Position numbers and translations under genes: made by a program
Part shown: piece by piece, positions 1,891-31,111 of the stretch
Layout: each line of letters begins with the position of its first letter
How positions within the stretch are numbered: the stretch's first letter is position 1
The notes under the pieces: model-generated
The model's database searches: none
Told to the model about the DNA's origin: nothing
The model's input: only the letters and a program-made list of their open reading frames with translations
Virus record (IMG/VR): IMGVR_UViG_3300038429_000797
Location: 1 to 37,498 of that record
Source: a virus
Length of the DNA: 37,498 nt
Reading direction: 5' to 3' (one strand)

Positions 1891-4800
1891 CTACAGCAGC
1901 AGCTCGTAGCCGATCTGATAGAGAGTCGAGGGCAGCAGCGCCGCACTGACGACAAAGGTCGCGACGGTAGTTGTGGCTGTTCCGCTGACCACTCCGGATG
2001 AAATTCCCGAAGCGGTAATCAACACCGTTGGAGCGTGCGGCAGCGCAGACTGGAAGGTAACAGTGCAGAGCGTGCCGGCAGCCAGTCCGGTTGCGCCGGT
2101 GAGAATGGTGATCTGGCCGATGAGCGTGGAGCCCACCACGTTGCCGGTCGCGCCCGATCCGGCGGCCGAGCCGACAGCGACGGTGCCGGCCTGCTCCGGT
2201 GGAGCTCCGGAGACTGGCACGTCATAGGGCGAAAGCTCCTCGTAGAGCGTCAACTCATCCATGAGCGCGCCGCCGGGAGTGAGTGTAAGAATCTGGCCGC
2301 CGCCTATGCTGGTCGTCGCCGAAGCCCCATAGCCGCCGCCGCCGGAGATGATCACGTTGGGATTCTGCAGCCAGCCCGCGCCGGGATTGGTGATGGTGAA
2401 CCCGGCAACTGTGGAGCTCGCCAGGTACGCCGTTCCGCTTGCCCCAGTGCCCCCACCGCCGCTCAGTGAGACAGTGGGAGGCGTGAGGTAGCCCGAGCCC
2501 TGGGTGACGATCGTAAAGCCCGTTACCTGGCCGCCGGCGACGGTTGCCGTGGCCGTAGCCTGCACGCCGCCAGAAAGTCCAGGAGCGGAGAGCGTGACCG
2601 TGGGCGATGTGGTGTAGCCCGCGCCTCCGGCGACTCCGACCCCGGAGAGCAGGTACTCGCAGACCGCCGTCGCCGCCGCTCCGGAGCCGCCGCCGCCGCT
2701 GAACGAAATCGACGGTACGCTTTGGTAGCCGGGATAGTCCTCCGTGGTGATGGTGATCTGGTCGACAGCGCCGCCGCTGACGGCGGTGTAACCGCCCGCG
2801 CCCGAGCCGCCGCCGCCGGTGAAGTTCAATGTCGGCGCCGAAGTGTATCCGAGGCCTCCGTTGGTGATGGTTGCGGAGGTGACGAAGAGCGCGCCGATAG
2901 CTTGTGCCGACGCGCCCGAGCCGCCTCCGCCGGAGAGCGTGATGGTAGGCGCAGAGGTGTAGCCATAGCCGGGGTTGGTGAGCGTGAAGCCGGTGACCAC
3001 GCCTCCGGAGATGGACGCGGTGGCCGTTGCTGAGTAACCTCCAGGCAGCTGCGGAGCGGAGAAGGTGACAGTAGGCGGGGACGTATAACCCAAGCCGCCG
3101 CCGGATCCCGCACCGCCCGATGTGAGCGCGATGCCGAGAACGCTGGAACCCGCGAGCGAGGCCGTAGCCGTGGCCTGCGTTCCACCCACCGGCGGCGCTG
3201 CGATCGAGACCGTGGGCGTGCCGGTGTAGCCGTAGCCGGTGTTGAGCAGAACAATTTCCGTCACCACGCCGGCAGTGAGAACCGCATAGGCCGTCGCGCC
3301 CTGGCCGGTTCCGTTGATGGTGACCGCGGGAGCCGTGGTATAGCCGTGTCCGCCGTTAGTGATAGACAGGCCGCCGATCGCCATGCCGTAGAGCTGCGCG
3401 GTGGCAGTGGCGTTGGTGGTAAAGACGCCGCCGCCGGAGAGCGTGACCGTGGGCGCGGTGCTGTAGCCCGAACCCGCCGCGTTGATCGTGAAGCCGGTGA
3501 TGAGCTGGCCGCCGCCGGGCTGCGTTGCGCCCAGCACGGCCGTCGCCGATGCGCCCGAGCCGCCGCCTCCGGAGAATGTGACGGTTGGGGTCGTCGTGTA
3601 GAGCGTCATCGGGTTGGTGAGGATGACCTGAAGAACGCCGTTGTTATAAAGCGTGGCGTAGGGCTGATCAAGATAAGGATTGAAAGAAACTGTGGGCGCC
3701 GAAGTGTAGCCCCAGCCGTCCTGGCCCACCACGGAAGCCTGAACTCCGTTCCACTCGTAGACGCTGGGATCCGTTTCGTTGACTGGAACCACCAGCGAGA
3801 CGGCCAAGGCGCGCTCGCCTCCTTCGTCTTCGCTCTCCTGCTCCTCGATCTGAAAGCGCAGGTCGCCGCTAATCTCAAGAACTTTATTCGTCCAGCCCAG
3901 CACCGGGAAGGTGAATTGCATCACGTCCGTGGGCTGCATCTGCCAAGCCGCCAGCGACATGGGGAAGCTGCCCGATCCCTGCTGCCGGTTGCGCATGAGG
4001 TTGATCTTGGCCACGCGCTGCGCCTGCACGATAGAGATAACAGAGCGGAAGCTTAAATCCTTGGGCAGCAGGATGCCGCCATCCTGTGCGAGAAACTCGT
4101 CATAGCCGAAGCCATGCAGCGCATCGTGGGCATATTGCGGGTAGCTGGTGGGCTGCCAGGCGAGTGGCCAGGTATCCTCCGTCTGCCCGTACCACCATCC
4201 ATTCGAGTCGTAGAGATCGGATGCGCCGCCCTCGCCGCGGGTGATGTTGTTGTAGGGATAATTGGGAGCGATATAAGTTCCGTTGACGCGATTGAAGAGC
4301 TCCTTGAAGCTGCGATTCGGCATCCACGTCGGAGTTCCAACCAGCGCGCCCTGATCAAAGACGAAGCTCGGCCCCTGCCAATACGCGGGCCAGATAAACC
4401 ACTGGCCGCCGATGCGCGAGATCCTCCCGGCCGCCGCCGGCATCATCATGGCCAGCGCCGCGCCGGGCGATGTGCCTGTGTCGTAGTGGAGATTGAGCTG
4501 GTAATTCTGCTCAAAGCCCGCCGAGGTCAACACATCCTCATCGCACACGTTGGCCGCGGCGATGAGCTGCGCCTGGTTGACTGCCGCGTTGGGGCTGGGA
4601 GTGACAGTGATCAGAGGTTGTGTGGTGTAGCCTGCGCCAGGATTGGTGATATTAAAGCCCACCACCTCGCCGGCAGTGGGCCCGGAGCCGAGTATGGCGG
4701 TGGCCGTAGCCATGGTCAGGGTTCCAGCGGGCGCGGGGTAGCAGTAGCCGGGCCCGAGTGGCGGCGCGATCGTCACGGTGGGCGGGGTAGTGTATCCACC

Positions 4801-5802
4801 GCCTCCGGAGACCAGCGTGATTCCAGCGAGCGTGCCGCCGGTGATGACGGTTCCGATGCCGCCGGGCTGCACGGGCGTGATCTGCGCGGTGGCGACGCAA
4901 TCCTGCGTATCGCCCAGGCCGAAATCCGCATCCGTAATCGCGTCGGCAACGATCAGCGCCCAGTTGGCGCTGAAGCTGCGGCCGCCGGTGCGCGGATCGT
5001 AGATATCGTTTTTGCCGCGGACAGTGAAGCGGATCTCGGGGAAATTCGGAAACTGCGTCGAGTCGTAGCCGATCTGCAAAAAGACATAAGTGCAACCGCC
5101 GCCATAGGGAGACTGATTTACATTCGCCGCCCAATTAGGGTCGGTGGCCGCGAGCTTCTGCACGATATCGCCGGGCAGCTGGTCGCCGTAGCGCGCCTCG
5201 CAATAAACCTTGCCGGCGAACTGATAGTGATTTCCACCGGGGCCGATGCCGTAGCCGAGGCCCATGCCGTAGTAGGGATGCTGGCCGTAAGGGGTGGTAT
5301 TCAGCACCGCACCGGGGGTGTTGGCCTGCACGTCGTTGGCTGCGATGCCGCCGAAGTTGATGCCGTTGCGCGTGGTATTGGCTGGGTTCGCCGTATTGGG
5401 GAAGGCGGGGCTGGTGTTTGAGGTCTGCTGCCAGAAGACCTGGCGGCCGTCAAGATATAAATTCACGATGGAATCGATCTGGTGACCGGCCAGAGCGATG
5501 ACCAGGTTGTAAAGCGGAAGCCCTGTGTTGCCGAAGCCGGTGGTGGATTGGTAGACAATGGTACCCCCGATCCGCTGCTCGCCATAGACCACCTGGCGCA
5601 GGCCCGCGGCCTGGCGCACGGTGATGCCCAGGCCGCGCTGGTTCGCCAGAGCCTCGCTGATGGCCGCGGCTTCCATGCTGATGCCGCCGGCAGCCATGGC
5701 TTGAATAGCGGCGGCCAGCAAAGGCGAAGCTGCGCCTCCAGTGAAGTATTCGAGCGCAATTGCGCCGACTAGCATGGCTGCGCCGGTGATGGCTTTGCTC
5801 AT
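1891..5802 (-). CDS. J-like tail tip / host specificity protein with Gly-rich repeats
   Basis: A 1303-residue tail tip protein, expected at the end of the tail where it contacts the cell. The N-terminus (1-60) has a hydrophobic, Ala/Gly-rich segment followed by a region resembling the N-terminal part of lambda J-type hub proteins (VVYGEQRIGGTIVYQST). The middle (about 430-680) is non-repetitive. From about 680 to 1190 there are some 12 repeats of roughly 40 residues built on G-Y-T-S-A-P-T-V-T followed by SGGGGSGASA; two more occur near 314-400. Repeats of this type form elongated beta structures in phage tip and fibre proteins (family knowledge). Position after the NlpC-like gene fits the order hub - peptidase - J. 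The start at 5802 follows a Shine-Dalgarno hairpin. Confidence 0.85.
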   Translation of the reverse strand: MSKAITGAAMLVGAIALEYFTGGAASPLLAAAIQAMAAGGISMEAAAISEALANQRGLGITVRQAAGLRQVVYGEQRIGGTIVYQSTTGFGNTGLPLYNLVIALAGHQIDSIVNLYLDGRQVFWQQTSNTSPAFPNTANPANTTRNGINFGGIAANDVQANTPGAVLNTTPYGQHPYYGMGLGYGIGPGGNHYQFAGKVYCEARYGDQLPGDIVQKLAATDPNWAANVNQSPYGGGCTYVFLQIGYDSTQFPNFPEIRFTVRGKNDIYDPRTGGRSFSANWALIVADAITDADFGLGDTQDCVATAQITPVQPGGIGTVITGGTLAGITLVSGGGGYTTPPTVTIAPPLGPGYCYPAPAGTLTMATATAILGSGPTAGEVVGFNITNPGAGYTTQPLITVTPSPNAAVNQAQLIAAANVCDEDVLTSAGFEQNYQLNLHYDTGTSPGAALAMMMPAAAGRISRIGGQWFIWPAYWQGPSFVFDQGALVGTPTWMPNRSFKELFNRVNGTYIAPNYPYNNITRGEGGASDLYDSNGWWYGQTEDTWPLAWQPTSYPQYAHDALHGFGYDEFLAQDGGILLPKDLSFRSVISIVQAQRVAKINLMRNRQQGSGSFPMSLAAWQMQPTDVMQFTFPVLGWTNKVLEISGDLRFQIEEQESEDEGGERALAVSLVVPVNETDPSVYEWNGVQASVVGQDGWGYTSAPTVSFNPYLDQPYATLYNNGVLQVILTNPMTLYTTTPTVTFSGGGGSGASATAVLGATQPGGGQLITGFTINAAGSGYSTAPTVTLSGGGVFTTNATATAQLYGMAIGGLSITNGGHGYTTAPAVTINGTGQGATAYAVLTAGVVTEIVLLNTGYGYTGTPTVSIAAPPVGGTQATATASLAGSSVLGIALTSGGAGSGGGLGYTSPPTVTFSAPQLPGGYSATATASISGGVVTGFTLTNPGYGYTSAPTITLSGGGGSGASAQAIGALFVTSATITNGGLGYTSAPTLNFTGGGGSGAGGYTAVSGGAVDQITITTEDYPGYQSVPSISFSGGGGSGAAATAVCEYLLSGVGVAGGAGYTTSPTVTLSAPGLSGGVQATATATVAGGQVTGFTIVTQGSGYLTPPTVSLSGGGGTGASGTAYLASSTVAGFTITNPGAGWLQNPNVIISGGGGYGASATTSIGGGQILTLTPGGALMDELTLYEELSPYDVPVSGAPPEQAGTVAVGSAAGSGATGNVVGSTLIGQITILTGATGLAAGTLCTVTFQSALPHAPTVLITASGISSGVVSGTATTTVATFVVSAALLPSTLYQIGYELLL

Positions 5803-6994: not shown

Positions 6995-7642
6995 CTAGCG
7001 CACTTCAGTGCAGCTAAAGCTGATCTGCGTCAGCCTGTCATTCGTTGTGTGCCAGGTGCGCTTGTTGCTGCTGAGGCGGAAGACGCCGACGGTATTGACC
7101 AGGGTGATAGCCGCGCCGTCCGCAGGCGTCTCCCGCAGGCTGGGCCAGATGGGAATCTGAATCTTGCCTCCGGCGTCGCTTGCGACCTGAGCAGTGGCCT
7201 GGTAGAGACGCACGCCAACCTGGAGATAATCGTTCGGCATCAGCTGGCCATAGACGCTCGCCCTCCAGCCTTTGGTATTCAACACCATGGCGCTGACCGC
7301 ATTGCCGCCGGAGATTGTGCCGTCAACCAGTGGAGCTCCGAGCGCGGCTCCTTGCGGGGTTCCGGCTGAGACATCGCCGATCTGAAAGACGTTGGCTTTG
7401 CCTCGAAGCGCAGCCAGGAATGCCTGCCAGGGGCCGGCCTGCTGAGCCGTCATCTTGGGCAGCGCGAGCTGCAAGCTCCAGCGATCTGCGCCGGGCCATA
7501 TCTGCGTCTGCGCGTTGCCGGGAGCATAAGGCGATTCAACCACCGCGACATGATCTTCCATGGTGATGGAGAGGTCACTGAAGCCGGGCGCGGCGGGCAT
7601 GGCGATCAGGTTGTAAGTGCTGGCGCCGACGGTGATTTGCAT
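6995..7642 (-). CDS. Distal tail / minor tail protein
   Basis: A 215-residue structural protein opening with MQITVGASTYNLIAMP, predicted to be mostly beta. The segment PWQAFLAALRGKANVFQIGD (about 85-104) resembles minor tail proteins that sit at the tail tip and join tube to hub. It is the first gene of the canonical tip block that ends at 1490. In related phages it would directly follow the tape measure gene, but here it is separated from it by about 8.3 kb. The start at 7642 has AAAGGA in a hairpin. Confidence 0.7.
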   Translation of the reverse strand: MQITVGASTYNLIAMPAAPGFSDLSITMEDHVAVVESPYAPGNAQTQIWPGADRWSLQLALPKMTAQQAGPWQAFLAALRGKANVFQIGDVSAGTPQGAALGAPLVDGTISGGNAVSAMVLNTKGWRASVYGQLMPNDYLQVGVRLYQATAQVASDAGGKIQIPIWPSLRETPADGAAITLVNTVGVFRLSSNKRTWHTTNDRLTQISFSCTEVR

Positions 7643-7643
7643 G

Positions 7644-7660
7644 GTTTTCCTTTGGAAAAC
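7644..7660 (-). promoter_or_regulatory. Shine-Dalgarno hairpin before the distal tail gene
   Basis: On the minus strand GTTTTCC-AAA-GGAAAAC, a perfect 7-bp stem with the Shine-Dalgarno AAAGGA across loop and 3' arm. The stem is identical to that at 5804-5820 with a different loop. Confidence 0.6.
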
Positions 7661-7746
7661 AGGGGTCAGTTGTCAGTGAACAGTTGTCAGTTAAAGGCCC
7701 GAAGGGCAACCGCAGATCCTTCGTCCACCGCGGCGGACTCAGGATG
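7661..7746. repeat. Composite dispersed repeat (7-bp tract plus CCGCAGATCCTTCG element)
   Basis: Units GGGGTCA, GTTGTCA, GTGAACA, GTTGTCA are followed by GCCCGAAGGGCAACCGCAGATCC and a palindromic CCACCGCGGCGG core ending in CAGGATGA. The order and spacing match the element at 1794-1888. Confidence 0.7.
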
Positions 7747-7763
7747 AGAGGGAGTTGAGAGGG

Positions 7764-8288
7764 TCACAAAATGAACGCATAGCCGCTCTTGACCGCGCCG
7801 CCGGAGACCGTTACCGTCACGGAACTCGCCGTCACTGCGCACGTTGTCGTAACAGAGCTTCCAGTGCTCATAACCCCGGCCTCCGCGACGACGTTCATCT
7901 CGATTTGATTGAGATTCGTGAGGCCGCTGAAGTTGCCCGAACTCGCCAGGGTGGAACTCAAGGTAAAGCCCGCACCGTATGGCGCCCACTCATACGCGCT
8001 GCTCCATGACGTGCCACCGTTGATCGAATATTGGAAATTACAGTAATAGCTCTCGTCATTGTTGATATTGTTGGTCGACGTGCCTGTTACATAAAAGCTG
8101 ATGGAGATGGTCTGCCCGGCAGTCACGGCCTGCGATGCGAACGTGCAGGATGATCCTGTCACCGTGGTGACATGGCCGCCGGAGTAGCCCGCTTGCGTTG
8201 CCGTGGCTGTTGGCGCGCAGCTTTCCGTGATTGCGTGGGCTTGCCAACATGCGCCCAAAAACAACAGAGCTAAAATCGATTTCCGCAT
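7764..8288 (-). CDS. Small secreted protein of unknown function
   Basis: A 174-residue protein with a clear Sec signal peptide: MRKS, a hydrophobic core ILALLFLGACW and an AHA-I cleavage site near residue 19. The mature part is Ser/Thr/Asn-rich and predicted beta, with a few Cys, and no motif I recognise. It is the last of five consecutive genes with signal peptides (14462-7764). The start at 8288 has GGAGG well placed. The export signal is unusual for a gene lying within a tail module. It may be an exported accessory factor or a fibre-associated protein. Confidence 0.7.
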   Translation of the reverse strand: MRKSILALLFLGACWQAHAITESCAPTATATQAGYSGGHVTTVTGSSCTFASQAVTAGQTISISFYVTGTSTNNINNDESYYCNFQYSINGGTSWSSAYEWAPYGAGFTLSSTLASSGNFSGLTNLNQIEMNVVAEAGVMSTGSSVTTTCAVTASSVTVTVSGGAVKSGYAFIL

Positions 8289-8327
8289 AAATCCTCCATT
8301 TCCCTAGTTCCTAGCGCCTGATTCCTG

Positions 8328-10385
8328 CTACTGGTTGCAGGTGAGCTGGAAGGTGATGGCGGTCGCGCTCGACACGGCGCTCAGGTCTGCCGCGATAATG
8401 TCGCCCGCGCTGACGGCCGTGGTCGTAAAGTCGGACACAGTTGTGCTTTCAATCACCGTGCCGGTCGAGATGGAGACGCCGCTAGTACTGATGGAATTCG
8501 ATGCGGTGGGGATCGCCGTGCCTGTGGCAACTTTCCAGGTCTTCACCGTTGCCGTTCCCTGGTCGACCACGATCGACCAGCCCGCGATGGTGCAAGGGAA
8601 GGGAACGACCAGGTACTGGATCACTCCAGTAGTCAAGGCGCTTCCCCCCGGCGGTCCGAGCACGAACGGCAGCGAACGCGTTTTCAGGCGATCGACATAG
8701 GCGGTTGAGGCCGGGGCGGTCGAGTTATTGTCGGCGGATTGAGTTACAACCACTGTACCTGTCGGCAGGTTGGGCGTGCCAGTGAAAGTGGGCGATGCCA
8801 GCGGCGCTTTCGCGTTCATTTGCGTCTGCACGCTGCTGGTCGCATCGAGATAAGCCATCACGGTAGGCGACACGCCGTCCACTGTTTTATTGGTGAGGGT
8901 TTGCGTGTCCGTAGTGCCGATGATTGTCCCGGCAGGCGCGGCGACTGCGGTGTATACGCCCGTCGAGCTCTCTTCCAGGATGCTCTGCGCACCCGGCGTG
9001 GTAGGAGCGTTTGCCGTCGAAAACGTTCCCAGGCCGCTAACCGCCGTGTTCGGGATCTGATTCTCGCCGCCGACAGTTGTGCCGTTGGCGGTATAGTACA
9101 CGATCTGGTTGGTGTTGCCGGTGTTGATGGTGCCGGTGCCCGATCCGCTCAAACCTTGCGCGGCCAGGACGGCCCAGTAGGTTGCGTTCGGCGGAGCCTG
9201 GTTAGTGCTGGGCGCAATGGCGATGTAAGACGAGCCGCCATTCGAGACCGCATCAGGCACGACATAGGCCGTCACGCTGGACCAGGCGCCGAGCCAGATC
9301 AAGCCCGTGCTGCCAGTGGCTCCGGTTGATCCAGTTGGCCCAATCAGCGATGTGCAGGATCCTGGCCAGGAGCCGGAGGCCTTCGGCCCGTAGAGACAGT
9401 CGGTCGTAGTGAGGAGGAAGAAGTCACCGTTTACGCCGGTTCCGCTCGATGGCGCGCCGGTGCCGTTCCAGACCGTATTTCCATTTGTTCCGGCCGCGCC
9501 CGTCGCGCCAGTGGGGCCAACGAGTGACGCACAGGTGCCAGGCCATGCGCCGGAGGCCTTCGGGCCATAAAGGCAGTCGGTCGTCGTGAGCAGATAAAAA
9601 TCGCCGTTCGCGCCAGTGCCGCTCGATGGCGCGCCGGTTCCGTTCCACAACGTATTCCCGTTCGCGCCAGTGCTGCCAGTGGCGCCCGTCGCACCGGCCT
9701 GGGCAAGCAACGCCCAATACGACGTATTGGTAGGGAGCACGTTCGTGCTTGAGGCGGTGGCGATGTACGACGAGCCGTTATAACTCACGGCATCGGGCGC
9801 GACGTAGGCCGTGGAGCTTGACCACGCGCCCATCCAGATAGCCGCGCCGCCGGCCGGCCCGGCAGGGCCTGGAACGCCGGGCTGCGAGACGACCAGGCTG
9901 GCATCGTTGGGGTTGTAGAGGTCGAAATCGCACGAGCCGCCCGCCGAGCCGGTGGCTGCTGCGCACCAGGCGAAGGAGCCGGTGACGGCCGTGCCGGAGC
10001 CCGCCGGCTGCACGCAAGAGTAGCCGGGCCCGAGGATCTGCGCGCCGCTCACGTTGTCAACTGCGGTCACGCTATAGCAGAGATTCTGGGGCGTGGTCAG
10101 CATCGTGTCAGCCAGGTTGACCGAGAAGACGCCGGCAGTGACCACGGTGCAGACCGAACGCACCGTGCCCTGGCCGTTGCCGTTGATCCTGTAGCCAAAC
10201 GGCGCGCCGGAGTTGGTGACGGGCGCAAAGCAGATGGTCGCGTTGGCCACCAGTGTATTGCTCGCGTCCTGGAACTCGTTGGCGTTGACATTGACGTAGC
10301 CGAGAGGCGTGGTAGCGAAAGCCGGCGGACAGCTAACAGCGATCAGCGAACAGGCAACGGCGATTACGCGGAAGATGCGGCGCAT
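8328..10385 (-). CDS. Exported fibre-like protein with collagen-like segments and carbohydrate-binding-like modules
   Basis: A 685-residue protein. Residues 1-25 are a Sec signal peptide ([10 protein letters not shown]..., cleavage after AFA). An N-terminal domain of about 130 residues is related to that of the 14462 gene. Two modules at about 183-229 and 363-409 (GAWSS.TAYV.PDAVS..GSSYIA) have the W/Y pattern of small carbohydrate-binding modules. Between them are two 59-residue tandem units starting NGNT(L/V)WNGTGAPSSG, each followed by Gly-X-Y collagen-like stretches. The later part (TLTNKTVDGVSP...KAPLASPTFTGT) is typical of phage tail fibres. It is therefore a tail-fibre architecture carrying an export signal. 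It may be a receptor-binding fibre, or a surface protein made during lysogeny. The start has GGAG upstream. Confidence 0.8.
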   Translation of the reverse strand: MRRIFRVIAVACSLIAVSCPPAFATTPLGYVNVNANEFQDASNTLVANATICFAPVTNSGAPFGYRINGNGQGTVRSVCTVVTAGVFSVNLADTMLTTPQNLCYSVTAVDNVSGAQILGPGYSCVQPAGSGTAVTGSFAWCAAATGSAGGSCDFDLYNPNDASLVVSQPGVPGPAGPAGGAAIWMGAWSSSTAYVAPDAVSYNGSSYIATASSTNVLPTNTSYWALLAQAGATGATGSTGANGNTLWNGTGAPSSGTGANGDFYLLTTTDCLYGPKASGAWPGTCASLVGPTGATGAAGTNGNTVWNGTGAPSSGTGVNGDFFLLTTTDCLYGPKASGSWPGSCTSLIGPTGSTGATGSTGLIWLGAWSSVTAYVVPDAVSNGGSSYIAIAPSTNQAPPNATYWAVLAAQGLSGSGTGTINTGNTNQIVYYTANGTTVGGENQIPNTAVSGLGTFSTANAPTTPGAQSILEESSTGVYTAVAAPAGTIIGTTDTQTLTNKTVDGVSPTVMAYLDATSSVQTQMNAKAPLASPTFTGTPNLPTGTVVVTQSADNNSTAPASTAYVDRLKTRSLPFVLGPPGGSALTTGVIQYLVVPFPCTIAGWSIVVDQGTATVKTWKVATGTAIPTASNSISTSGVSISTGTVIESTTVSDFTTTAVSAGDIIAADLSAVSSATAITFQLTCNQ

Positions 10386-10387
10386 GG
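10325..10387. repeat. 63-bp direct repeat (copy 1) encoding a signal peptide
   Basis: Identical over 63 bp to 14402-14464. It covers the start codon and the first 20 codons of the 8328-10385 gene. See the second copy. Confidence 0.9.
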
Positions 10388-10456
10388 GTGTGCTCCAGAG
10401 AAGAGTGATGAGTGATTGGTGTGAGTGATTGACGCGCTTACGAAAATCGATGCAGG

Positions 10457-11548
10457 CTATTCCACTTTTCCCCCGCCGATAGTGCCGCCGCCGAGGATGG
10501 GCGCGGGCGCGCTGACCCCGCCCAACTGCAAAGTCAGCGAATAATTGTTTACCCCGTCAGCCGTGTTGCCGGTCGGCAGCCAGCCAAACACACCCGTTCC
10601 GCCATAGTTCGGGCAGGCTGTATTCACCTGCACGCCCATCGTTGTCGCGGCCGGCGTGAACTGGTAGATGGTTTGGCAGGTCTCGTTGCCTGGCGCATCG
10701 TACTGGTGGTTCACAAAAGCCAACAGCACCGTGTTGCCGTTGGTGCCCATCACTGTGGAGTGCGCGGCGTAGGGTGTTCCTGAAAAGTGGCCGCCGAAGA
10801 TCCCGCGCACATTCTGATAGCCCTTAACCGCGTTCCACAGCAGATCGCCGCCGCCAATGGTTGAATCATTCACGCCATCCACCGAGTTCGACTGGCAGCC
10901 GCTTGTGCCCGAGGCCGCCGTAGTTGACAGCACGGCCGCCGCGGTGACGGCGTTGTGCATGAATATCCACCAGTCAGAGAATCCTGTATGCGCGCTGAGC
11001 ACCGTCTGCGCAAAACTCAGCGCCGCCGCTCGTGGGCAGAACTCCAGAAACAGGAACCCCACCGTGGAAGAGCCGTTCGAAACCTGCATCCAGTTATTAA
11101 CTTCGGGGTCTTGTATCGCCCCGGTCATGGCTCCGCCGAAGTAGCTCTTCGCGGCCAGAACGCTCTCGACGTTTGATGTGTATTGCGTAGTTACGCGATT
11201 GGCAGGCACTGGAGTTCCGCCCGTCACCGCGCCCTCGTACTCATGATTTCCTATCGATTCGCCGGTGGGGATGTTATCCGCCAAGATCGGATCGAGGAAG
11301 TAGTTTACATAAGTGGCCCACTGCGTCGAGTTGGATGTGTCCACAGCATCGCCCGTCGATAACCACGCCAGCAGGTTGGGCGCATAGGTTGCCTTGTTGC
11401 TGTTGACCCACGAAACAGTATCCTGCAACTTGTTTGTATCGCCGCCCGAACTCATGTACTGAAGATCGGGCGAGACAATGATGGAATAGCTTGGCTCCTG
11501 AGCCATGCACGGCAGAGCGAACAGCGCGAAAATGAGCAGTCTTTTCAT
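10457..11548 (-). CDS. Secreted calcineurin-like metallophosphoesterase
   Basis: A 363-residue protein with signal peptide MKRLLIFALFALPCMA-Q and a metallophosphoesterase fold: Asp28 with Gln30 in SPDLQY (the usual second residue His is Gln), GDAVD at 66-70, GNHE at 100-103, His198 in FMHNA and GGH at 252-254. These residues bind two metal ions in phosphatases and phosphodiesterases. The substrate is unknown; exported members of the family act on nucleotides, sugar phosphates or cell envelope polymers. ATG at 11548 overlaps the stop of the previous gene (TGATG), so the two are translationally coupled. A longer reading from 11608 would begin inside that gene. The C-terminus is Gly-rich (ILGGGTIGGGKVE). 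Confidence 0.8.
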   Translation of the reverse strand: MKRLLIFALFALPCMAQEPSYSIIVSPDLQYMSSGGDTNKLQDTVSWVNSNKATYAPNLLAWLSTGDAVDTSNSTQWATYVNYFLDPILADNIPTGESIGNHEYEGAVTGGTPVPANRVTTQYTSNVESVLAAKSYFGGAMTGAIQDPEVNNWMQVSNGSSTVGFLFLEFCPRAAALSFAQTVLSAHTGFSDWWIFMHNAVTAAAVLSTTAASGTSGCQSNSVDGVNDSTIGGGDLLWNAVKGYQNVRGIFGGHFSGTPYAAHSTVMGTNGNTVLLAFVNHQYDAPGNETCQTIYQFTPAATTMGVQVNTACPNYGGTGVFGWLPTGNTADGVNNYSLTLQLGGVSAPAPILGGGTIGGGKVE

Positions 11549-12549
11549 CAGTTGTACCCCATGCAATGATCGTAGGTGGCCAGCGTAGCCGCATCGGTGC
11601 TGCTCCATATCCCGTTGTAGAAATCCATCTCCGTGACTTGAACCTGTACCCAGTTGCCCGAATTTGCATACATCAAGGTCGAGATATTGGCGGTATAGCT
11701 TTCTGTCGATGCCGTCCCCGAACCGTCCGCATTGGAAGTTCCTGCATTGTCCCAGTAGAAGGCATAAGCTTTCGTAGACGTGTTATAGGTTGCCGTAATG
11801 CCGTAATTGCTACCCGGAGAGAACACCTTCGTTCCGGCTCCGGTCGCTGCTCCCGTCCCTACTTTATAGAAGTACTCATGCGAATCTCCGCTATAAATTC
11901 TCCATCCAATCGAGTTCGCTGCGCCGCCAATTAGATAGCCAGAACCCGATAAATGCAGCATTACGTGGAAAGAATAGGTCGTGTTCGCGTCAGGAATCGA
12001 AGTCGCCAGATTCAGGAAGTCTGATGTGCCGTTAAAAGTTAGATAGGGAGTCGTAAAGGTGCCAGATGCCATATAGGTCGGCGCATCTGCGCTCACCGAT
12101 TGCGATGCCGGATTGCTGCCCACCGAGTCGCTGAATCCGGGGTATCCCGTGCCGTTCGCGTTAGCCACAGCCAACCATTGACTTGTCACGGCTGGCAAAG
12201 TGCATCCCGCGCTGATGGTGTAGGCCGCGCTGCCCACCGCGCTCTGCGTGTATCCCGCCGCCGTCGCTATCGCCTGCACGGTCTGCGTTGTCGCTACCGT
12301 GATTGCGCCAGAATAGGTTGAGGATGCCGTGGTAGGCGTAGAACCATTCGTTGTGTAGTAGATGGTCGAGCTTGGCGTTGTGTCGCTGATGGTGACAGAT
12401 TGAGTGCTGCTGTATGTCCCCGCAGCGGGAGAGAATGTGGGCGTTGCAGCCTGAGTCGCCGCAACAATAGGAAACGATGCAGTGATGGTCTGCTGCGCCA
12501 GTAGTGTGGCGGAGCCGAGCAGGAGCGAGAATGCCAGCAGAATTTTCAT
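11548..12549 (-). CDS. Secreted protein with chitobiase-type repeat and concanavalin/LamG-like domain
   Basis: A 333-residue protein with signal peptide [19 protein letters not shown]. Residues 35-112 match the chitobiase/hexosaminidase C-terminal repeat (FSPAAGTYSSTQSVTISD, IYYTTNGSTPT, QAIATAAGYTQSA), a beta-sandwich frequent in secreted acidobacterial proteins. Residues about 120-330 (WRIYSGDSHEYFYKVG..., YGITATYN, FYNGIWSS) look like a LamG/concanavalin-like lectin sandwich. It probably binds carbohydrate. It overlaps both neighbours by short stop/start overlaps, so it belongs to one operon with the collagen-like gene upstream and the phosphoesterase downstream. Confidence 0.75.
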   Translation of the reverse strand: MKILLAFSLLLGSATLLAQQTITASFPIVAATQAATPTFSPAAGTYSSTQSVTISDTTPSSTIYYTTNGSTPTTASSTYSGAITVATTQTVQAIATAAGYTQSAVGSAAYTISAGCTLPAVTSQWLAVANANGTGYPGFSDSVGSNPASQSVSADAPTYMASGTFTTPYLTFNGTSDFLNLATSIPDANTTYSFHVMLHLSGSGYLIGGAANSIGWRIYSGDSHEYFYKVGTGAATGAGTKVFSPGSNYGITATYNTSTKAYAFYWDNAGTSNADGSGTASTESYTANISTLMYANSGNWVQVQVTEMDFYNGIWSSTDAATLATYDHCMGYN

Positions 12550-14462
12550 CAGTAGGTGTACTCCACAATCATGGCCACGCTTGTCCCGGTAAGCGTACCG
12601 CCCATCACCGGGTCAATCCCCGTGCCAGTCGTCCAGCTTGCCCCGCTCACGGTGCCCGAAGAGCTATAGGCATAGGAGTTTCCGCAAGTGATTGCCGCGC
12701 TCAGAATCGTTGTGCCTGTACCTGCGCTGCCAAAAGCAGGATTGACGGTCGTGGTATTTGAGGCGTTGTCACTGCGACATCTGATAGCAATGATGGTGCG
12801 CGTAACACCGGAATCGTTGTAGCAGGTGTTGTTGACCACGGCGTCGTCGCCCGAAGATAGCGCGTGCGAAGTGCCGCTGCCGCCCCATGCCTCAGTACAG
12901 GAACCCTTGCTGTATTGCGGGGATAAGTTCGCCGCCGGAAGCACATCTGTGTTTTGCAGATAGTAAGTAGAAATTGTGCCGTTATTGCAGGCTGTCAGGC
13001 GGTGATTGGTGGAGTCGTTCCAGAAGTAGTCAGAGCCCGAGGCGCAGGTAAACCAGCTCGGCTTTGCTCCCTCTGTTCCGCCGCCGGAAAACTGCGTAGA
13101 GCTGAACGCGAGGCTGGCCAGGCCGCCCATGTTGCCGCTGCCATCGAGCGTTGCATCGGCGTCTACGGTTGAATCGTCTGCACCGTTGCCGATCATGATA
13201 TGCTGCGCGGTCAGCGCGGAGGCAGAATGCGTAACCGTGCCCGTCCCCGCTGCTGCAAATGCGAAGATTGCCCCGTTCCAGTACAAGAGGCCTGTGGTTA
13301 AAGATGGAAGCGAATGGCCAAGCAAACCGCATATCTGCGGGTTGGGATAACTGCTCGTGCTGCACAGATCTCCGCCGGCTGTTCCATTAGGCGGCAGCGC
13401 GGTAGGTATCGCTGGCGGACCCGATATCTGCGAGTAGGCCACCTGGGCGCATGTCGGGCCGGAGGATGTGTCGGCTATTTCGTATTGTCCCGCATTGCAA
13501 GCGCCATTCCCGGTGCGCGCTGCTGCCGCGCCTGATGAGTCGCTGGCGGCGATCGCTGCCGCCTGCGCGGCAGCCGCAGCTCCCGCCGCATCGTAGTCTG
13601 TGCCGGCGGTTGCCTGGGCTACGTTGGCGCCATTACCCTTCAGTAGGCCTGCGAAAGTGGTGATTGTGGCGGTGCTTAGATTGTTCGGTCCAGCAGGCCC
13701 TGTTGCGCCCGTTGCGCCTGCCGTCCCTTGAGAACCCTGCGGCCCGGTAGCTCCGGTTGCGCCTTGAGGGCCTTGCGGCCCAGCGGCGCCAGCCGCACCC
13801 GTTGGACCCGTTGCCCCGGTTGGGCCCGCGGGCCCGGTTGCGCCGATAAGAGAAGCGAGCCATTGAGATTGAGTGCCAGAGAACCCCGCCGCCACGGCGA
13901 TCTGGTAAGCACTCAGCCCTGCAGAGCCCTGCGATCCGCTTCCGCCACTGCCGACGCTCACCGTGCAGACGCCGGTGCAGCCGTTGATACTCTGCACATA
14001 ACTCACGCCAGGCGACGGAGGAATGGACGGGATCCATTCATCGAAGTTATCGACGCCGCCCAAATACCAGTAATTCGACGCGCTGGGCTGCACACAGGAG
14101 CCGAGCAGCGAGGATCCATTAGGCGTTACCAGTTTCACGTTCCAGCACAGTCCGGCGGGCACTGTAAAAGCCGAATCCGGCATCGCGGGGATTGTGAATT
14201 GACCGTTGACGACGTCGGCTGTCATTGCCGCGGCCGTTGCCATGCCGCCGCCCGGCTTGTGATAGACGGTCGGAACGCCGGAAGAGGAAACCGGCGACCA
14301 GTAGACGGTGCACTTATTGCCCCAGTTCGCATTGGAGCAAGCCAGGGCATTGCCGTCCTGAAGATTGGACGCCGTGACCGGAACAGTCTGAGCGCGCGCC
14401 AGCGGACAGCTAACAGCGATCAGCGAACAGGCAACGGCGATTACGCGGAAGATGCGGCGCAT
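12549..14462 (-). CDS. Exported collagen-like / fibre-like protein
   Basis: A 637-residue protein. Residues 1-24 are a Sec signal peptide identical for the first 20 residues to the 10385 gene. The N-terminal domain (25-130) is related to that protein. A motif [23 protein letters not shown] (about 183-205), common just before collagen-like stretches in phage fibres and bacterial adhesins, precedes about 17 Gly-X-Y triplets (207-259, rich in GAT, GPQ). The remainder is Ser/Thr-rich with a fibre-like C-terminus. Collagen-like segments give trimeric rods. The first gene of the five-gene secreted block; start at 14462 with GGAG upstream. Confidence 0.8.
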
Positions 14463-14464
14463 GG
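14402..14464. repeat. 63-bp direct repeat (copy 2) encoding a signal peptide
   Basis: Identical to 10325-10387, about 4.1 kb apart and in the same orientation. It encodes [10 protein letters not shown] plus the next ten residues and ends one base beyond the start codon. Identity stops sharply on both sides while the downstream proteins are diverged, so the segment was copied recently or is kept identical by recombination. Confidence 0.9.
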
Positions 14465-14692: not shown

Positions 14693-14720
14693 TTGACATT
14701 TTACGCGGTTGTGCTATGAT
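14693..14720 (+). promoter_or_regulatory. Near-consensus sigma70 promoter of the plus-strand cassette
   Basis: TTGACA at 14693-14698, a 16-bp spacer and TATGAT at 14715-14720, in a locally AT-rich region. It faces the three plus-strand genes 14770-15797 and is the best promoter match seen in the window. It would let the cassette be expressed independently of the leftward late operon. Confidence 0.75.
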
Positions 14721-14742
14721 TATTTTGTAACCAAATCACAAA

Positions 14743-14764
14743 TGCGGCAAGCCCGCAGGAGGAT
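14743..14764 (+). promoter_or_regulatory. Hairpin abutting the ribosome binding site of the first cassette gene
   Basis: TGCGG (14743-14747) pairs with CCGCA (14753-14757) and is directly followed by GGAGGAT (14758-14764). The second cassette gene has the same design with different paired bases at 15213-15233. Confidence 0.5.
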
Positions 14765-14769
14765 TCAAA

Positions 14770-15168
14770 ATGATCGACCTCACCACAATCTCCACCCTGA
14801 CGACCAACGAACTCAACAATCTGATCGCGGCTGTTAAAGCCGCCCTCGCCGCGCGCGAAACGACCCCTGTTGCCAAGCGCGTGACGATCCACTACTGCCT
14901 CTACAACCCTCGCCGCATGTCTCGTCCGTGGATTGCCAAGATCACGAGCTGGCCCGTTGGCGGCCGCCCGGAGTTGCAGTTTGGCTCCTACCTCGGCAAC
15001 GACAACGGGGGGGATCTAGAAATCATGGCTCTGCCTGGCGACATCCTCCGCGATGGGCAAAAAGATAGACGCGGCAACAACGGCACAAACGACTGGAGCG
15101 TTGTTGAGGCTGATTACACGCTCCGCACCATTGATCAGGCGGAAGCCCGCAAGCTTTTCTGCCTGTAG
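14770..15168 (+). CDS. Cassette protein 1, unknown function
   Basis: A 132-residue protein. Residues 1-33 form a likely helical region (LTTNELNNLIAAVKAALAARE), followed by a beta-rich domain with many Trp, Tyr and Arg (VTIHYCLYNPRRMSRPWIAKI, SVVEADYTLRTID). No known motif. The ribosome binding site GGAGGAT lies six bases upstream, behind a small hairpin. It is transcribed against the surrounding tail genes from its own promoter, as expected for a 'moron' gene expressed in the lysogen. It is followed by a GC-rich hairpin and a second gene with a similar leader. Confidence 0.75.
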   Translation: MIDLTTISTLTTNELNNLIAAVKAALAARETTPVAKRVTIHYCLYNPRRMSRPWIAKITSWPVGGRPELQFGSYLGNDNGGDLEIMALPGDILRDGQKDRRGNNGTNDWSVVEADYTLRTIDQAEARKLFCL

Positions 15169-15178
15169 TAACCACCGA

Positions 15179-15198
15179 GGGGCGGCGGCCTCCGCCCC
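15179..15198 (+). other. GC-rich hairpin between cassette genes 1 and 2
   Basis: GGGGCGG (15179-15185) pairs with CCGCCCC (15192-15198) around a 6-base loop, eight bases after the stop codon. There is no following T-run, so it is more likely an mRNA-stabilising or attenuating structure than a full terminator. Confidence 0.45.
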
Positions 15199-15212
15199 AG
15201 CTACATCGCAAA

Positions 15213-15233
15213 TGCGCATAGGCGCAGGAGGAT
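15213..15233 (+). promoter_or_regulatory. Hairpin abutting the ribosome binding site of the second cassette gene
   Basis: TGCGC (15213-15217), loop ATAG, GCGCA (15222-15226), directly followed by GGAGGAT (15227-15233). The flank CAAATGCG is shared with the leader of the first gene. The fifth stem pair differs (G-C versus C-G) while pairing is kept. Confidence 0.5.
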
Positions 15234-15240
15234 ACACATC

Positions 15241-15546
15241 ATGGCACGTTACAAAATGGACGATAGCACCATCGTTGACACCGGCAACGCCACAAAATCG
15301 TGGCCGGAAACGACCGATTGGAACGGCTCCAATCACATTGGCCGCAGCAGCCGCAGCCAATGGCATGATCAAACTCTCTACCGCTCACGCAAGGGCCGCT
15401 ACTATATCGAGTACCACAGCCGCGAGCAGGGCATTATGGACCGCGCGGAGTGGATAAGTAATCGAGCCGCTACCCTCTGGCTGCTCGCAAATGAGTGCGA
15501 TTTGCCTGACAATCTCAAAGAGTTTGAGGAGCAAATAACCGAGTAA
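15241..15546 (+). CDS. Cassette protein 2, unknown function
   Basis: A 101-residue protein, MARYKMDDSTIVDTGNATKSW. It contains a conserved-looking core (SQWHDQTLYRSRKGRYYIEYHS) and a C-terminal helix (ATLWLLANECDLPDNLKEFEEQ). Small proteins with this pattern (an N-terminal RYK stretch, a central LYRS.KGRYYIE strand pair and an AA.WLL.N...LP..L tail) are found scattered in bacteria and phages without assigned function, as far as I recall. GGAGGAT precedes the ATG by seven bases. It lies in one transcription unit with cassette proteins 1 and 3. Confidence 0.75.
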   Translation: MARYKMDDSTIVDTGNATKSWPETTDWNGSNHIGRSSRSQWHDQTLYRSRKGRYYIEYHSREQGIMDRAEWISNRAATLWLLANECDLPDNLKEFEEQITE

Positions 15547-15804: not shown

Positions 15805-15960
15805 ATGAAAACCGGGTTCTCAGAAGAACAATGGTTGCCGATCAGGAGCTATGCGGATTCGGCAATCAAGTTTCAGGTGCTCGCAACAGCGCAGGCAACA
15901 CAAACCTGCTTTTCTACAATCCGCCCCGAGCGGGTCGACGGGCCTGCATGTCATAGATAG
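15805..15960 (+). CDS. Possible 51-residue protein overlapping the tape measure end
   Basis: ATG at 15805 opens a frame MKTGFSEEQWLPIRSYADSA that ends inside the antisense 3' end of the tape measure gene (47-base overlap). The first 30 residues look protein-like, but there is no good ribosome binding site and the last part is antisense to real coding sequence. It may be a truncated fourth cassette gene. A palindrome TTAAAGGGATAAATCCCT lies at its start. Confidence 0.3.
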   Translation: MKTGFSEEQWLPIRSYADSAIKFQVLATAQATQTCFSTIRPERVDGPACHR

Positions 15961-18106
15961 CGTTGACTGCGGCGGCGGCGATGCTTGGACCCTCCTGCCT
16001 GATGCTGCGCTGCACGCGGCGGTCGACGTCACTGATCGAGACGCCGCTCACATCGAAGTGAAAGTGCTGCTCGACGTGGTTGGTTGAGCCGCCACCCCCG
16101 CCAGAGAAGAGACGCTGAGTGTCTCGATTGCTGGCGATGGAACTAGTGGCGCCCACGTGCATCAGCTCCGGGCCGCGCTCGCCGGTGAGATAGAATCGGC
16201 CAGGCTGCATCAAGCCGCCGCCGGCCCGTCCGCCGCCAAAGAAAGACTTGAGGCCAGCCCAGAAGCCCCCACTATCGGCTGCGCTATCGGCTCCGGTCGA
16301 ACTGAAGAGCCCCGAGTCTCCGCCCCCGCTGAAACTTGCTCCGGCATCTCTCGTCCACATGGGGTGACTTCTCGAGCTTCCCGGCTTGGCGCCGATACCA
16401 AAGGCCTTCATAATCGAACCTTCGCCGGCCTGCAGGCTATCCTTGGCCACGCCCTTGAAGATGGTCGCGCCGGCGTTCTTCCAGTCCCCCTTGTGGTATT
16501 GCGTGGTCATCATCTTGATCAGCTCGTCGTTGACAGTATTCATCACATTGACGGCAGTTCTCGACATGATCTCGCCGACGTTGGTCCATTGATTTGCCAC
16601 ATTGCCAAGGGTTTCATGCATCTGCCCCAGCAGCGAGTTCTCTTTCTGCAGGAAGGTCAGCTCAGATTGCTTGAGCTGCATCTCGCCGCCCAGCTGCGCG
16701 GATTGATTATTCAGGCCCGCGAGCCGCGTGGCACGCTCAACCGGGGTAAGCGACTCATCGCCGGAAACGCGAGTCTTCTCCGCGCCGATATTCTCGCTTT
16801 CCTGCCGCAACCCCCTCAGCTCTTCGCGAACCTCGGCCAATTTAGCCGCACGCGCGGTGAGCGCTCCAAATTCCTGCCGGAAGCGAATCTGCTGAACAGC
16901 ATAGGCGGTACTCAGCTTCTGCTGAATCTCAGAGCCCCTCAATACTTCAGCGCTGTAAGCTTTCCAGCGTTCGCCGGTCTGGGTCAGATCTTCCTGCTGT
17001 TCCCTGAGCCGCTTTGTCTCGTCTTCCCATGTCTTTGCAAAGATTCCGCTATCGCGCTCCGCTTCAGCGCGGAGAATCTTGTCATTTTCAAGCGTCTGCC
17101 GCACAAAGTCATTGCGCGCATCGGCGTTAGGATCTTCCGCTTTGCCCTGTTTGCCGCGCCCCTGCAATTGCTTATTCAGCATGTTGTCTGTGGTGTTTGT
17201 TTGGGTCAGGTCGACGAAATGCCCCATCTGGGAAAGCTGAGCCAGATAGTCGGTAAGCAAGTCCCTGCGTCCCCCCTGGCCGGGAAGCGTAGTCTGCGTT
17301 CCGGTGGGCATAGGAAGGCCTTGCTTCGCTAGAAGCGGCATCATACCCAGCTCGGCGTTAGTGAACTCAGTCTTGAAGGTCTTCGGCAGTTCGGTTTTAA
17401 TCCAGTCAATCTCCTTCTGGATCGCAGCCTGGTAATCAGCAGGTGTCTTGGCGCCCTCAAGGGTGGTCTGTAATCCACGGGAACGCTCGGTCAGGTCCCC
17501 GGTGCCAGCGGCCCCGGTGAGGAAACTCCAGAGAGAACCGATCTCCTCGCCCTTCAGAGCCTCGGCAATCTTCTTAATGTCCGCTGAAAGATGGTCGTTA
17601 AGTTTGTCGGCGGACTCGATCGCCTCGTCAATGGCCAGCTTCAAACCATTTTGCGGCTTGCCTTGCAGTTTTGCATTCAGGTTTTCGAGTTTGTCATTGG
17701 CGACCTGAAGCTCGTCGTTCGCCATCCGCATCGGCTCAGCGATGCTACGCCAAGTGTCAGTATGCTTGCGGGCAGCTTCCTTCAGTTTCTCGCCGTACTC
17801 GTAGACTTTTTTCCCGGCCTCAAAGATGGCAACGCCGATAGCGATAACAGCAGTCGCCGCGAAAGCACTAGCCAGGAGCGGAGCCGCGCCGGGGAGGCTG
17901 GCGATGAAGCGCTGCACATGCCGAGGCAAGTGGACGCCGATCTCCTCGCCCAGCACCATGACGGTGCCTCGGGCATCGTTCATGCTGGTCTTCATGGTCT
18001 GGGCGGTGGCGCGGGTGGTTGCGGCCGCCTTATCTAACTCCGTCCGCAGCTTTACCGTGTTGCCATCGATCGAGATCAGAAGACCGGCTACAACTTCATT
18101 CGGCAT
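15914..18106 (-). CDS. Tail tape measure protein
   Basis: A 730-residue protein that sets tail length and is ejected with DNA. The N-terminus (MPNEVVAGLLISIDGNTVKL) is typical, then there are long helical/coiled-coil stretches, a hydrophobic segment about 72-100 (APLLASAFAATAVIAIGVAIF), further Gln/Lys/Glu-rich helices and a Gly-rich C-terminus (GGGRAGGGLMQPGRFYLTGERGPELMHVG) that is standard for tape measures. At the usual rise of about 0.15 nm per residue the tail would be near 110 nm. It overlaps the end of the chaperone T-frame by a few bases and is coupled to it; GAGGAG is upstream. The downstream end meets the plus-strand cassette. Confidence 0.93.
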   Translation of the reverse strand: MPNEVVAGLLISIDGNTVKLRTELDKAAATTRATAQTMKTSMNDARGTVMVLGEEIGVHLPRHVQRFIASLPGAAPLLASAFAATAVIAIGVAIFEAGKKVYEYGEKLKEAARKHTDTWRSIAEPMRMANDELQVANDKLENLNAKLQGKPQNGLKLAIDEAIESADKLNDHLSADIKKIAEALKGEEIGSLWSFLTGAAGTGDLTERSRGLQTTLEGAKTPADYQAAIQKEIDWIKTELPKTFKTEFTNAELGMMPLLAKQGLPMPTGTQTTLPGQGGRRDLLTDYLAQLSQMGHFVDLTQTNTTDNMLNKQLQGRGKQGKAEDPNADARNDFVRQTLENDKILRAEAERDSGIFAKTWEDETKRLREQQEDLTQTGERWKAYSAEVLRGSEIQQKLSTAYAVQQIRFRQEFGALTARAAKLAEVREELRGLRQESENIGAEKTRVSGDESLTPVERATRLAGLNNQSAQLGGEMQLKQSELTFLQKENSLLGQMHETLGNVANQWTNVGEIMSRTAVNVMNTVNDELIKMMTTQYHKGDWKNAGATIFKGVAKDSLQAGEGSIMKAFGIGAKPGSSRSHPMWTRDAGASFSGGGDSGLFSSTGADSAADSGGFWAGLKSFFGGGRAGGGLMQPGRFYLTGERGPELMHVGATSSIASNRDTQRLFSGGGGGSTNHVEQHFHFDVSGVSISDVDRRVQRSIRQEGPSIAAAAVNAIYDMQARRPARGGL

Positions 18107-20848: not shown

Positions 20849-20982
20849 AAACAGTGAACAGTGGACAGTGAACAGTGGTCAGTAAGAGTCCGAAAGGCAA
20901 CCGCAGATCCTTCGTCCGCCGCGGCGGACTCAGGATGACAAGCGCGAAAAACGGACCCCTGATCCCTGAAACCTGACCACTG
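20849..20982. repeat. 7-bp tracts flanking a CCGCAGATCCTTCG element
   Basis: 20849-20884 is made of units such as CAGTGAA, CAGTGGA, CAGTGGT. 20890-20943 is the full second element with TCCGCCGCGGCGGA palindrome and CAGGATGACAAGCG. 20955-20982 has ACCCCTGATCCCTGAAACCTGA in the opposite sense. The whole 154-bp gap between two genes is repeat-derived. Confidence 0.75.
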
Positions 20983-21366: not shown

Positions 21367-21383
21367 TTTTTGCTCCGCAAAAA
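21367..21383 (-). promoter_or_regulatory. Shine-Dalgarno hairpin before the head closure gene
   Basis: On the minus strand TTTTTGC-GGA-GCAAAAA, identical in stem and loop to the one at 1777-1793, nearly 20 kb away. Confidence 0.6.
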
Positions 21384-21470
21384 CAATGAACAGTGATCAG
21401 TGAACAGTGAAAAGGCTAAATGGCAACCGCAGATCCTTCGTCCGCCATGGCGGACTTAGGATGACAGGCT
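21384..21470. repeat. Composite dispersed repeat (7-bp tract plus CCGCAGATCCTTCG element)
   Basis: ACAATGAACAGTGATCAGTG units lead into GGCAACCGCAGATCCTTCG, palindromic TCCGCCATGGCGGA and TAGGATGACAGGCT. The palindrome centre differs from other copies (CATG instead of CGCG) but pairing is kept. Confidence 0.7.
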
Positions 21471-22549: not shown

Positions 22550-22993
22550 TTAAGCCGTTCCGAAGTTCGGGCTGACCGACAGGACGGTGGAAGCGATGCT
22601 GGTGGCATCGTTGACGACGGGGTGCGCCTTGGAGCCGTACTGGATGGCGATGACGCCCTGGATGACGGCGCCGGTCGAGCCGCCGCGGGTGATGACGCCG
22701 CGCACATACTGCTGCAGCGGGCGGTAAACGTCGAGAACGACAGCCTGGCCACTGGCCGCGGCTGCGGTGTCGGCGGTGTCGGAAGCGGCGAAGTCGGCGG
22801 CATCGCTGCCGTTAGACTGCGCGCCGCCCTGGGCCTTGATGCCCGGCGAGCCGTCGGTGACGGCGCCGAAGAGAGCGACGAAGACCACTCCCTCGTAATC
22901 CGCCATGTTGATCTCGGAAGTGTTGACGCTGGTGGTGCCGACTGCGGTGGCTCCCAGCACAACCGTGACCTTGTGATTCGGTGCGAAGTTCAT
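22550..22993 (-). CDS. Phage head structural protein (possible decoration protein)
   Basis: A 147-residue beta-rich protein. The start MNFAPNHKVTVVLGATAVGTTSVNTSEI and the later part LDVYRPLQQYVRGVITRGGSTGAVIQGVIAIQYG resemble a family of small uncharacterised structural proteins encoded just after the major capsid gene in Proteobacteria and Acidobacteria phages. Size, composition and place suggest a capsid decoration or stabilising protein, but this is inferred. The start at 22993 has TTGGAGGG in an imperfect hairpin. Confidence 0.65.
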   Translation of the reverse strand: MNFAPNHKVTVVLGATAVGTTSVNTSEINMADYEGVVFVALFGAVTDGSPGIKAQGGAQSNGSDAADFAASDTADTAAAASGQAVVLDVYRPLQQYVRGVITRGGSTGAVIQGVIAIQYGSKAHPVVNDATSIASTVLSVSPNFGTA

Positions 22994-22994
22994 A

Positions 22995-23015
22995 GGTTTT
23001 CCCTCCAAGGAAACC
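22995..23015 (-). promoter_or_regulatory. Imperfect Shine-Dalgarno hairpin before 22993
   Basis: On the minus strand GGTTTCC-TTGGA-GG(G)AAAACC: seven pairs with a small bulge, the Shine-Dalgarno GGAGG in loop and 3' arm. It borders a GTTGTCAGTTATCAGTTGTCAG tract. Confidence 0.45.
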
Positions 23016-27373: not shown

Positions 27374-27552
27374 CAATCGCCGACTTTCTTATTGCTATCC
27401 GGGGCGAAACCAAAGAGGGCGAGGAGCATGAGAAGAATACCGGCAGCGATGACTCCAGCGGGGATATAGATCATGCCTACGCCAAAAGAAACGAGCGCGC
27501 AGCCCAGCAGGCCGACAATATCGCAAATAGGCACTATGAGGGGAACTTTCAT
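27373..27552 (-). CDS. Small two-helix membrane protein between terminase and portal
   Basis: A 59-residue protein with two predicted membrane helices, about 8-24 (PICDIVGLLGCALVSFGVG) and 31-50 (PAGVIAAGILLMLLALFGFA), and a charged tail PDSNKKVGD. ATG overlaps the terminase stop by four bases (ATGA) and its TGA overlaps the portal ATG, so translation of the three is tightly coupled. The compact two-helix form and lysine-rich tail would be compatible with a holin or a small superinfection protein; neither can be shown. Confidence 0.7.
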   Translation of the reverse strand: MKVPLIVPICDIVGLLGCALVSFGVGMIYIPAGVIAAGILLMLLALFGFAPDSNKKVGD

Positions 27553-30811: not shown

Positions 30812-30850
30812 TGTTTCCCCCAAAAATCCAACGGCGCCTTTCGCATTTCA

Positions 30851-30964: not shown

Positions 30965-30968
30965 TTCA

Positions 30969-31082: not shown

Positions 31083-31111
31083 TTCACTACTCAGCCGCGC
31101 TCTATAAATGC

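Follow-up and report, generated by a model that had tools for sequence, protein, structure and literature searches.

Tail fibre genes with predicted signal peptides in a temperate siphophage and in related phages of Acidobacteriota

Five genes with signal peptides in a phage tail operon

The window, by which we mean the whole 37,498-nucleotide stretch analysed here, belongs to a record of type virus and is a temperate siphophage with genes for an integrase (1-1203), a Clp-type protease (24573-25703) and TerL (27549-29246). Five consecutive open reading frames on its minus strand (14462-7764) had been read from the sequence alone as Sec-exported proteins, and their ends, strand and signal peptides (SPs) were confirmed. 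The set is flanked upstream by the tape-measure protein gene (TMP, 15914..18106, minus strand) and downstream by the distal tail protein gene (DTP, phrog_1302, 6995..7642, minus strand), with GTA14-like, NlpC-like and J-like genes following on the DTP side (7642-1891 together with DTP); tape-measure, distal-tail and baseplate-type genes are the neighbours expected of virion fibres. In gene order the set consists of fib1, a predicted exported collagen-like fibre (12549..14462, 637 aa); lec (11548..12549, 333 aa); MPE (10457..11548, 363 aa); fib2, a predicted exported tail fibre (8328..10385, 685 aa); and a small beta-rich protein (7764..8288, 174 aa). The stop codon of fib1 overlaps the start codon of lec, and the stop codon of lec that of MPE, in TGATG.

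Signal-peptide prediction was positive for all five products, by a simple rule-based score of our own and not by a trained predictor. Each has an n-region of charge +1 to +3, an h-region with a 10-residue KD mean of 2.69-2.83 and a small-x-small c-region, that is, the charged, hydrophobic and small (-3/-1) elements recognized by Sec and signal peptidase I. The predicted SPs cover approximately residues 1-24 of fib1 (cleavage between ARA and QT), 1-24 of fib2 (between AFA and TT) and 1-19 of the small protein. These five scores are the highest among the ~40 genes listed in the window. The runners-up, the tail-tip protein (1891-5802; 2.50) and 22550-23008 (2.24), are without the typical SP layout; in the latter the hydrophobic stretch does not begin until residue 14 and is preceded by an acidic residue. 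Among TMP, DTP, GTA14-like and NlpC-like homologues in related loci, 155 of 156 were SP-negative and one passed.

The sequence-only reading described the set as two collagen-like rods, a lectin-like protein, a metallophosphoesterase and a small protein. The first term suits fib1, which has a collagen match (Pfam, E 1.9e-8), and fits fib2 only loosely because the latter, which matches a tail-fibre PHROG (E 3.7e-31) and contains a CBM_5/12-like stretch, has only short G-x-y tracts. These are shaft and tail-fibre profiles of the kind expected of virion fibres. A CHB_HEX_C_1 domain was found in lec, whose probable LamG-like part was seen by eye only. MPE itself is without a Pfam match, and a sequence search of the PDB gave nothing, but relatives in Terriglobia chromosomes (26-30% identical, with an SP at the first or an alternative start) carry PF00149 (Metallophos; both of the two scanned). 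We therefore term MPE only a relative of calcineurin-like phosphoesterases. The small protein has no confident family or fold (structure pLDDT 57.6, not used).

Between TMP and fib1 (14693-15546), the minus-strand tail operon is interrupted by two plus-strand open reading frames, 14770-15168 and 15241-15546. The pair is preceded by a near-consensus sigma-70-like promoter (TTGACA-16-TATGAT with TG, 11/12), gave no match in a Pfam search and resembles a moron pair. A search for sigma-70-like promoters on the minus strand, immediately ahead of fib1, found none. Elsewhere in the window, the J-like tail-tip protein (1891-5802) contains many GYTSAPTVTFSGGGGSGA-type repeats that match fibre and baseplate PHROGs. 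Dispersed repeats of ~80-118 bp (81-87% alike) lie mostly between late genes (1771-1887, 7657-7747, 20849-20938 and 21367-21469), and a near-tandem, overlapping direct repeat of ~156 bp (97% identical) occupies 30833-30987 and 30950-31105.

The first 61 coding nucleotides of fib1 and fib2 are identical, synonymous sites included, and together with the preceding CC they form a 63-nt direct repeat on the minus strand: copy 1 (14402..14464) encodes the start of the fib1 SP and copy 2 (10325..10387) that of the fib2 SP. Beyond the leaders, the longest stretch shared by the next 330 nt of the two genes is 10 nt. A sister contig, L002 (99.7-99.9% identical to the window), is without fib1, lec and MPE; the gap falls exactly between the repeat copies, the sequence upstream of fib1 continuing straight into fib2. 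Two more contigs terminate at repeat-linked positions, one 63 nt (the repeat end) and the other 127 nt past the start of the repeat; this is expected if alleles with and without these genes are both present. An assembly artefact at the repeat junction is unlikely, as the contig ends match branch points between two real alleles; this argument assumes long k-mers, and a k near 63 could mimic a contig ending at the repeat end. Because of the exact gap in L002 and the contig ends at repeat positions, the 4,077-bp fib1-lec-MPE block looks like an accessory cassette. It may have been lost or gained through recombination in the SP-coding repeat, which would provide a simple route for gaining or losing a whole adhesion cassette. 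Weaker sharing of SP-coding sequence within a contig (30 nt) was seen in L167.

A fibre family with a docking-type N-terminal domain

Directly behind their SPs, fib1 and fib2 share an N-terminal domain (NTD) of ~110-130 residues (14025..14384 and 9909..10298, respectively, minus strand). It has no match in PHROGs, three scattered weak Ig-like matches in Pfam and nothing convincing in the PDB by sequence. Single-sequence tblastn searches with fib1, MPE and two NTDs against a phage collection, and with one NTD against a plasmid collection, gave no match. The structure of the NTD was predicted from 74 sequences with a pLDDT of 91.9. Foldseek returned weak matches to this model, several of them phage tail or fibre proteins. 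The top VIA-align match was 8kec_b residues 1-103 (Z 9.7, 2.2 Å over 93 residues), followed by 8keg_a (Z 8.8), the Bxb1 tail tip (Z 8.0) and the XM1 neck (Z 7.1); Z scores of 8-10 denote a shared fold, not a shared function. From chain lengths and ranges, 8kec_b would be the short tail fibre of cyanophage A-1(L) and 8keg_a its gp82N. In the short tail fibre, residues 2-110 build a ring by which the fibres are anchored on the baseplate; the neck fibre is joined to gp5 through gp82N (PMC10966104). The SP thus appears to stand right before a virion-docking domain, a domain that fib1 and fib2 possess by fold match and that is absent from lec, MPE and the small protein.

Searching whole genomes and scanning viral contigs yielded 114 unique NTD family members, 109 of them untruncated; searches for the family within a class and within an order supplied most of the chromosomal ones. 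Of the 109, 95 have an SP immediately ahead of the NTD (93 by rule and two, L177 and L151, by eye; our first rule missed about a dozen obvious SPs and a relaxed leader rule was then applied), and 14 are SP-less. The 93 measured leaders are 17-40 residues long (median 24) and comprise 91 distinct sequences. Their first ten residues are net positive in every case, the cleavage site lies no more than 12 residues from the NTD, and small -3/-1 residues are present in 92, with A-x-A in 59. SP-less proteins begin 2-9 residues before the NTD (e.g. M-P-T-G-YTQV). Two distant SP-less members, L127 and L130 (M..LKI.A.NCLR.AGG), form a long branch among SP-bearing ones.

The family occurs within the tail modules of dozens of viral contigs and prophages that are independent of one another, and fibre genes of this tagged, cysteine-paired kind are found in about ninety other viruses or prophages of Acidobacteriota. 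The slot between TMP and DTP holds SP-bearing members in 11 loci and SP-less members in four, in some cases with gaps of only 17-80 bp on either side (the shortest 17 and 24 bp). Elsewhere, SP-bearing members were found immediately ahead of TMP or behind the J-like gene. Such positions inside tail operons imply co-expression with tail genes. Fibre-domain matches were obtained in 21 of 399 sampled genomes of class Terriglobia and in 34 of 298 of one order; the nearest bacterial contig with the domain, a single contig in the genome-collection scan, is from a Terriglobia metagenome-assembled genome. Since the matches come from Terriglobia (Acidobacteriota), this is the probable host group of the window.

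The fibre family was thus found to recur when the same gene set was sought in other prophages, but relatives of lec, MPE and the small protein were absent from the loci of its members. Exported neighbours are common nonetheless. By a rough rule, 28 of 76 genes right after an SP-bearing fibre are themselves SP-positive, compared with 49 of 527 genes further away and one of 10 right after an SP-less fibre, which indicates that exported genes beside exported fibres form recurrent sets. In L053 an SP-bearing fibre and an SP-bearing small protein both lie between TMP and DTP. At another locus (L047:5177-6841, minus strand), three small genes with SPs, perhaps a lysis set, come after an SP-less fibre.

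Outside their SPs, the five window proteins contain 16, 2, 4, 12 and 4 cysteines in gene order. The NTDs of SP-bearing members have three pairs of cysteine positions, each of which is almost always filled at both positions or at neither: 21 both, one single and 73 none for pair A; 62, three and 30 for pair B; and 57, one and 37 for pair C. Counts for the second pair-B cysteine are biased because one of the scan patterns demanded it; A and C are unaffected. On the NTD tree, pair A undergoes ~13 changes in which both cysteines move jointly, and the case for pairing within SP-bearing members is strong. None of the 14 SP-less members has a complete pair, compared with 62 of 95 SP-bearing members for pair B, although 10 of the 14 retain one pair-B cysteine. 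Among complete open reading frames with an SP, 75 of 88 have an even number of cysteines beyond it; six of 11 SP-less frames have an even number. Because the SP state changes only ~4 times on a poorly resolved tree, too few for significance in an independent-contrast test, the contrast between SP-bearing and SP-less members is suggestive and not phylogenetically independent. Paired cysteines in even number are the signature of an oxidising compartment, which supports export without defining it.

Signal peptides on tail proteins of cultured phages

Tunturi 1 and 2 are podoviruses of Tunturiibacter psychrotolerans that form clear plaques, and their authors annotate no integrase or recombinase (PMC11924767). 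The main text of that paper contains no mention of signal peptides, virion mass spectrometry or structural-protein data. Both phages have SPs on consecutive genes gp12, gp13, gp14, gp16 and gp17 (that of gp16, slightly under the rule threshold, was assigned by eye), whose annotations read hypothetical, tail fibre, tail spike or pectin lyase, and virion structural protein. In Tunturi 1, gp17 combines a weak beta-helix match with CHB_HEX_C_1, the domain also seen in lec. In the siphovirus Tunturi 4, SPs are present on the tail protein gp113 and the virion structural protein gp114. Export of tail proteins is not universal, since the Tunturi 4 tail fibre gp111 and the examined tail proteins of Tunturi 3 are without SPs. 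None of the scanned tail proteins of Tunturi 1, 3 and 4 belongs to the NTD family, and the SP trait therefore recurs in unrelated tail genes. Tunturi 3 gp15 (L224:13298-14779) begins MATKNQITGGAFQDALGNVVANGYVTFELS and by eye resembles the SP-less docking domain, with no profile match.

Proposed fibre assembly and comparison with known systems

The accepted view places the folding and attachment of tail fibres in the cytoplasm. We know of no precedent in tailed phages for fibre assembly through the periplasm, and our literature searches in an open-access library turned up no description of tail fibres with SPs. Judged from their leaders, Sec export of fib1, fib2 and their relatives is strongly indicated; the fold, the shaft type and the operon position in turn point to virion parts. 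If the fibres are both, they must dock after the inner membrane has opened or in the lysate. We suggest that the infected cell exports fib1, fib2 and their family through Sec and that signal peptidase removes the SP, leaving a mature N-terminus near the point at which the SP-less relatives start. The fibres would form disulfides in the oxidising periplasm, probably trimerise there, and join tails via the N-terminal docking domain once the inner membrane has been opened by the holin; the last assembly step would then take place at or after lysis. This route would require cytoplasmic tails to meet periplasmic fibres, which is a point against it. The products of lec, MPE and the small gene may be co-exported as accessory adhesion or envelope-acting parts.

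We regard this account of Sec-exported, periplasm-oxidised virion fibres that dock late as the best explanation, and as a reasonably probable one. Assembly of fibres outside the membrane, one of two possibilities raised by the sequence-only reading, agrees best with an anchoring-type fold placed after the SP and with a tail-operon slot that SP-bearing and SP-less members share. The wider proposition, that tailed phages of Acidobacteriota commonly build receptor-binding fibres in this way (Sec-exported, disulfide-bonded and docked at the breach of the inner membrane), stands in our judgement at about even chances.

The other possibility, a surface or masking complex expressed by the lysogen, belongs to a broader explanation that we consider rather unlikely, in which exported fibre-derived proteins act off the virion. 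They might form a coat over the envelope of lysogens or infected cells, act as adhesins, or hide or alter receptors, the last of which would provide superinfection exclusion or protect progeny from debris. Such a role would suit the genuine export signals, the presence of a lectin-like protein and of a phosphoesterase with relatives among secreted host enzymes, the divergent plus-strand gene pair that separates the set from the tape measure, and the missing fib1-lec-MPE block in the sister contig. However, the fibres retain a docking-type domain right behind the SP, the genes of their relatives are packed in tail operons, where a tape-measure or distal-tail gene is often 11-80 bp away, and the plaque-forming Tunturi 1 and 2 share the feature. 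A lysogen-surface role is possible above all for lec, MPE and the small protein because these have no docking domain.

Retention of an uncleaved hydrophobic N-terminus, whether to hold the fibres at the inner membrane as an anchor or to dock them in the tail as a hydrophobic plug, is improbable: leader length does vary from 17 to 40 residues, but small -3/-1 residues near the NTD start in 92 of 93 measured leaders, SP-less relatives that manage without a leader in the same slot and cysteine pairs indicative of an oxidising compartment all speak for cleavage and export. The resemblance of MPE to secreted host phosphoesterases might also suggest bacterial secreted proteins that the phage acquired, or that were mis-assembled into the contig, and that are unrelated to the virion. 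This is very improbable, and for the fibres it is largely refuted by the recurrence of the family in tail modules of many independent viral contigs and prophages, and by near-identical phage contigs from other samples that contain the same genes as the window.

The family suggests an undescribed way of building the parts with which a virus grips its host. If late docking of periplasmic fibres is correct, a group of soil phages completes its host-recognition parts in another compartment and ties this step to lysis; disulfide-stabilised adhesins would be open to phages of Acidobacteriota, and the secretory features of the fibre genes would be explained. The family offers a natural system for asking how and when fibres join tails, and the cultured, plaque-forming Tunturi phages make the idea of periplasmic assembly directly testable.

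The closest structural parallels are the short tail fibre gp33 (beta-ring domain) and the neck fibre gp82N of A-1(L), with a similar predicted fold at the fibre N-terminus (Z 9.7 and 8.8). Sequence identity to the NTD is only 11-16%, and the A-1(L) domains begin at residue 1-2 without an SP (PMC10966104), unlike fib1 and fib2. The SP-less fibres of Terriglobia prophages (L044, L045/L022, L108, L172 and L186) have the same NTD in the same TMP-DTP slot, but begin at the NTD, with no SP and no complete NTD cysteine pair. Collagen-containing phage tail fibres (PHROG 5073, 1806 and others) likewise have G-x-y tracts or related shaft segments and lie in the tail operon; these matches are confined to the shaft and do not reach the SP or the NTD, and the NTD is without a PHROG match. 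Phage morons and lysogenic-conversion genes encode exported or outer-membrane proteins and are similar as phage-encoded exported products, to which the fibres described here add a virion-docking-type domain and a position in the tail operon. SAR endolysins are lysis enzymes that use Sec via an N-terminal signal retained as a signal-anchor; Sec use is common to both systems, whereas here it would serve fibres with a signal of the cleavable type.
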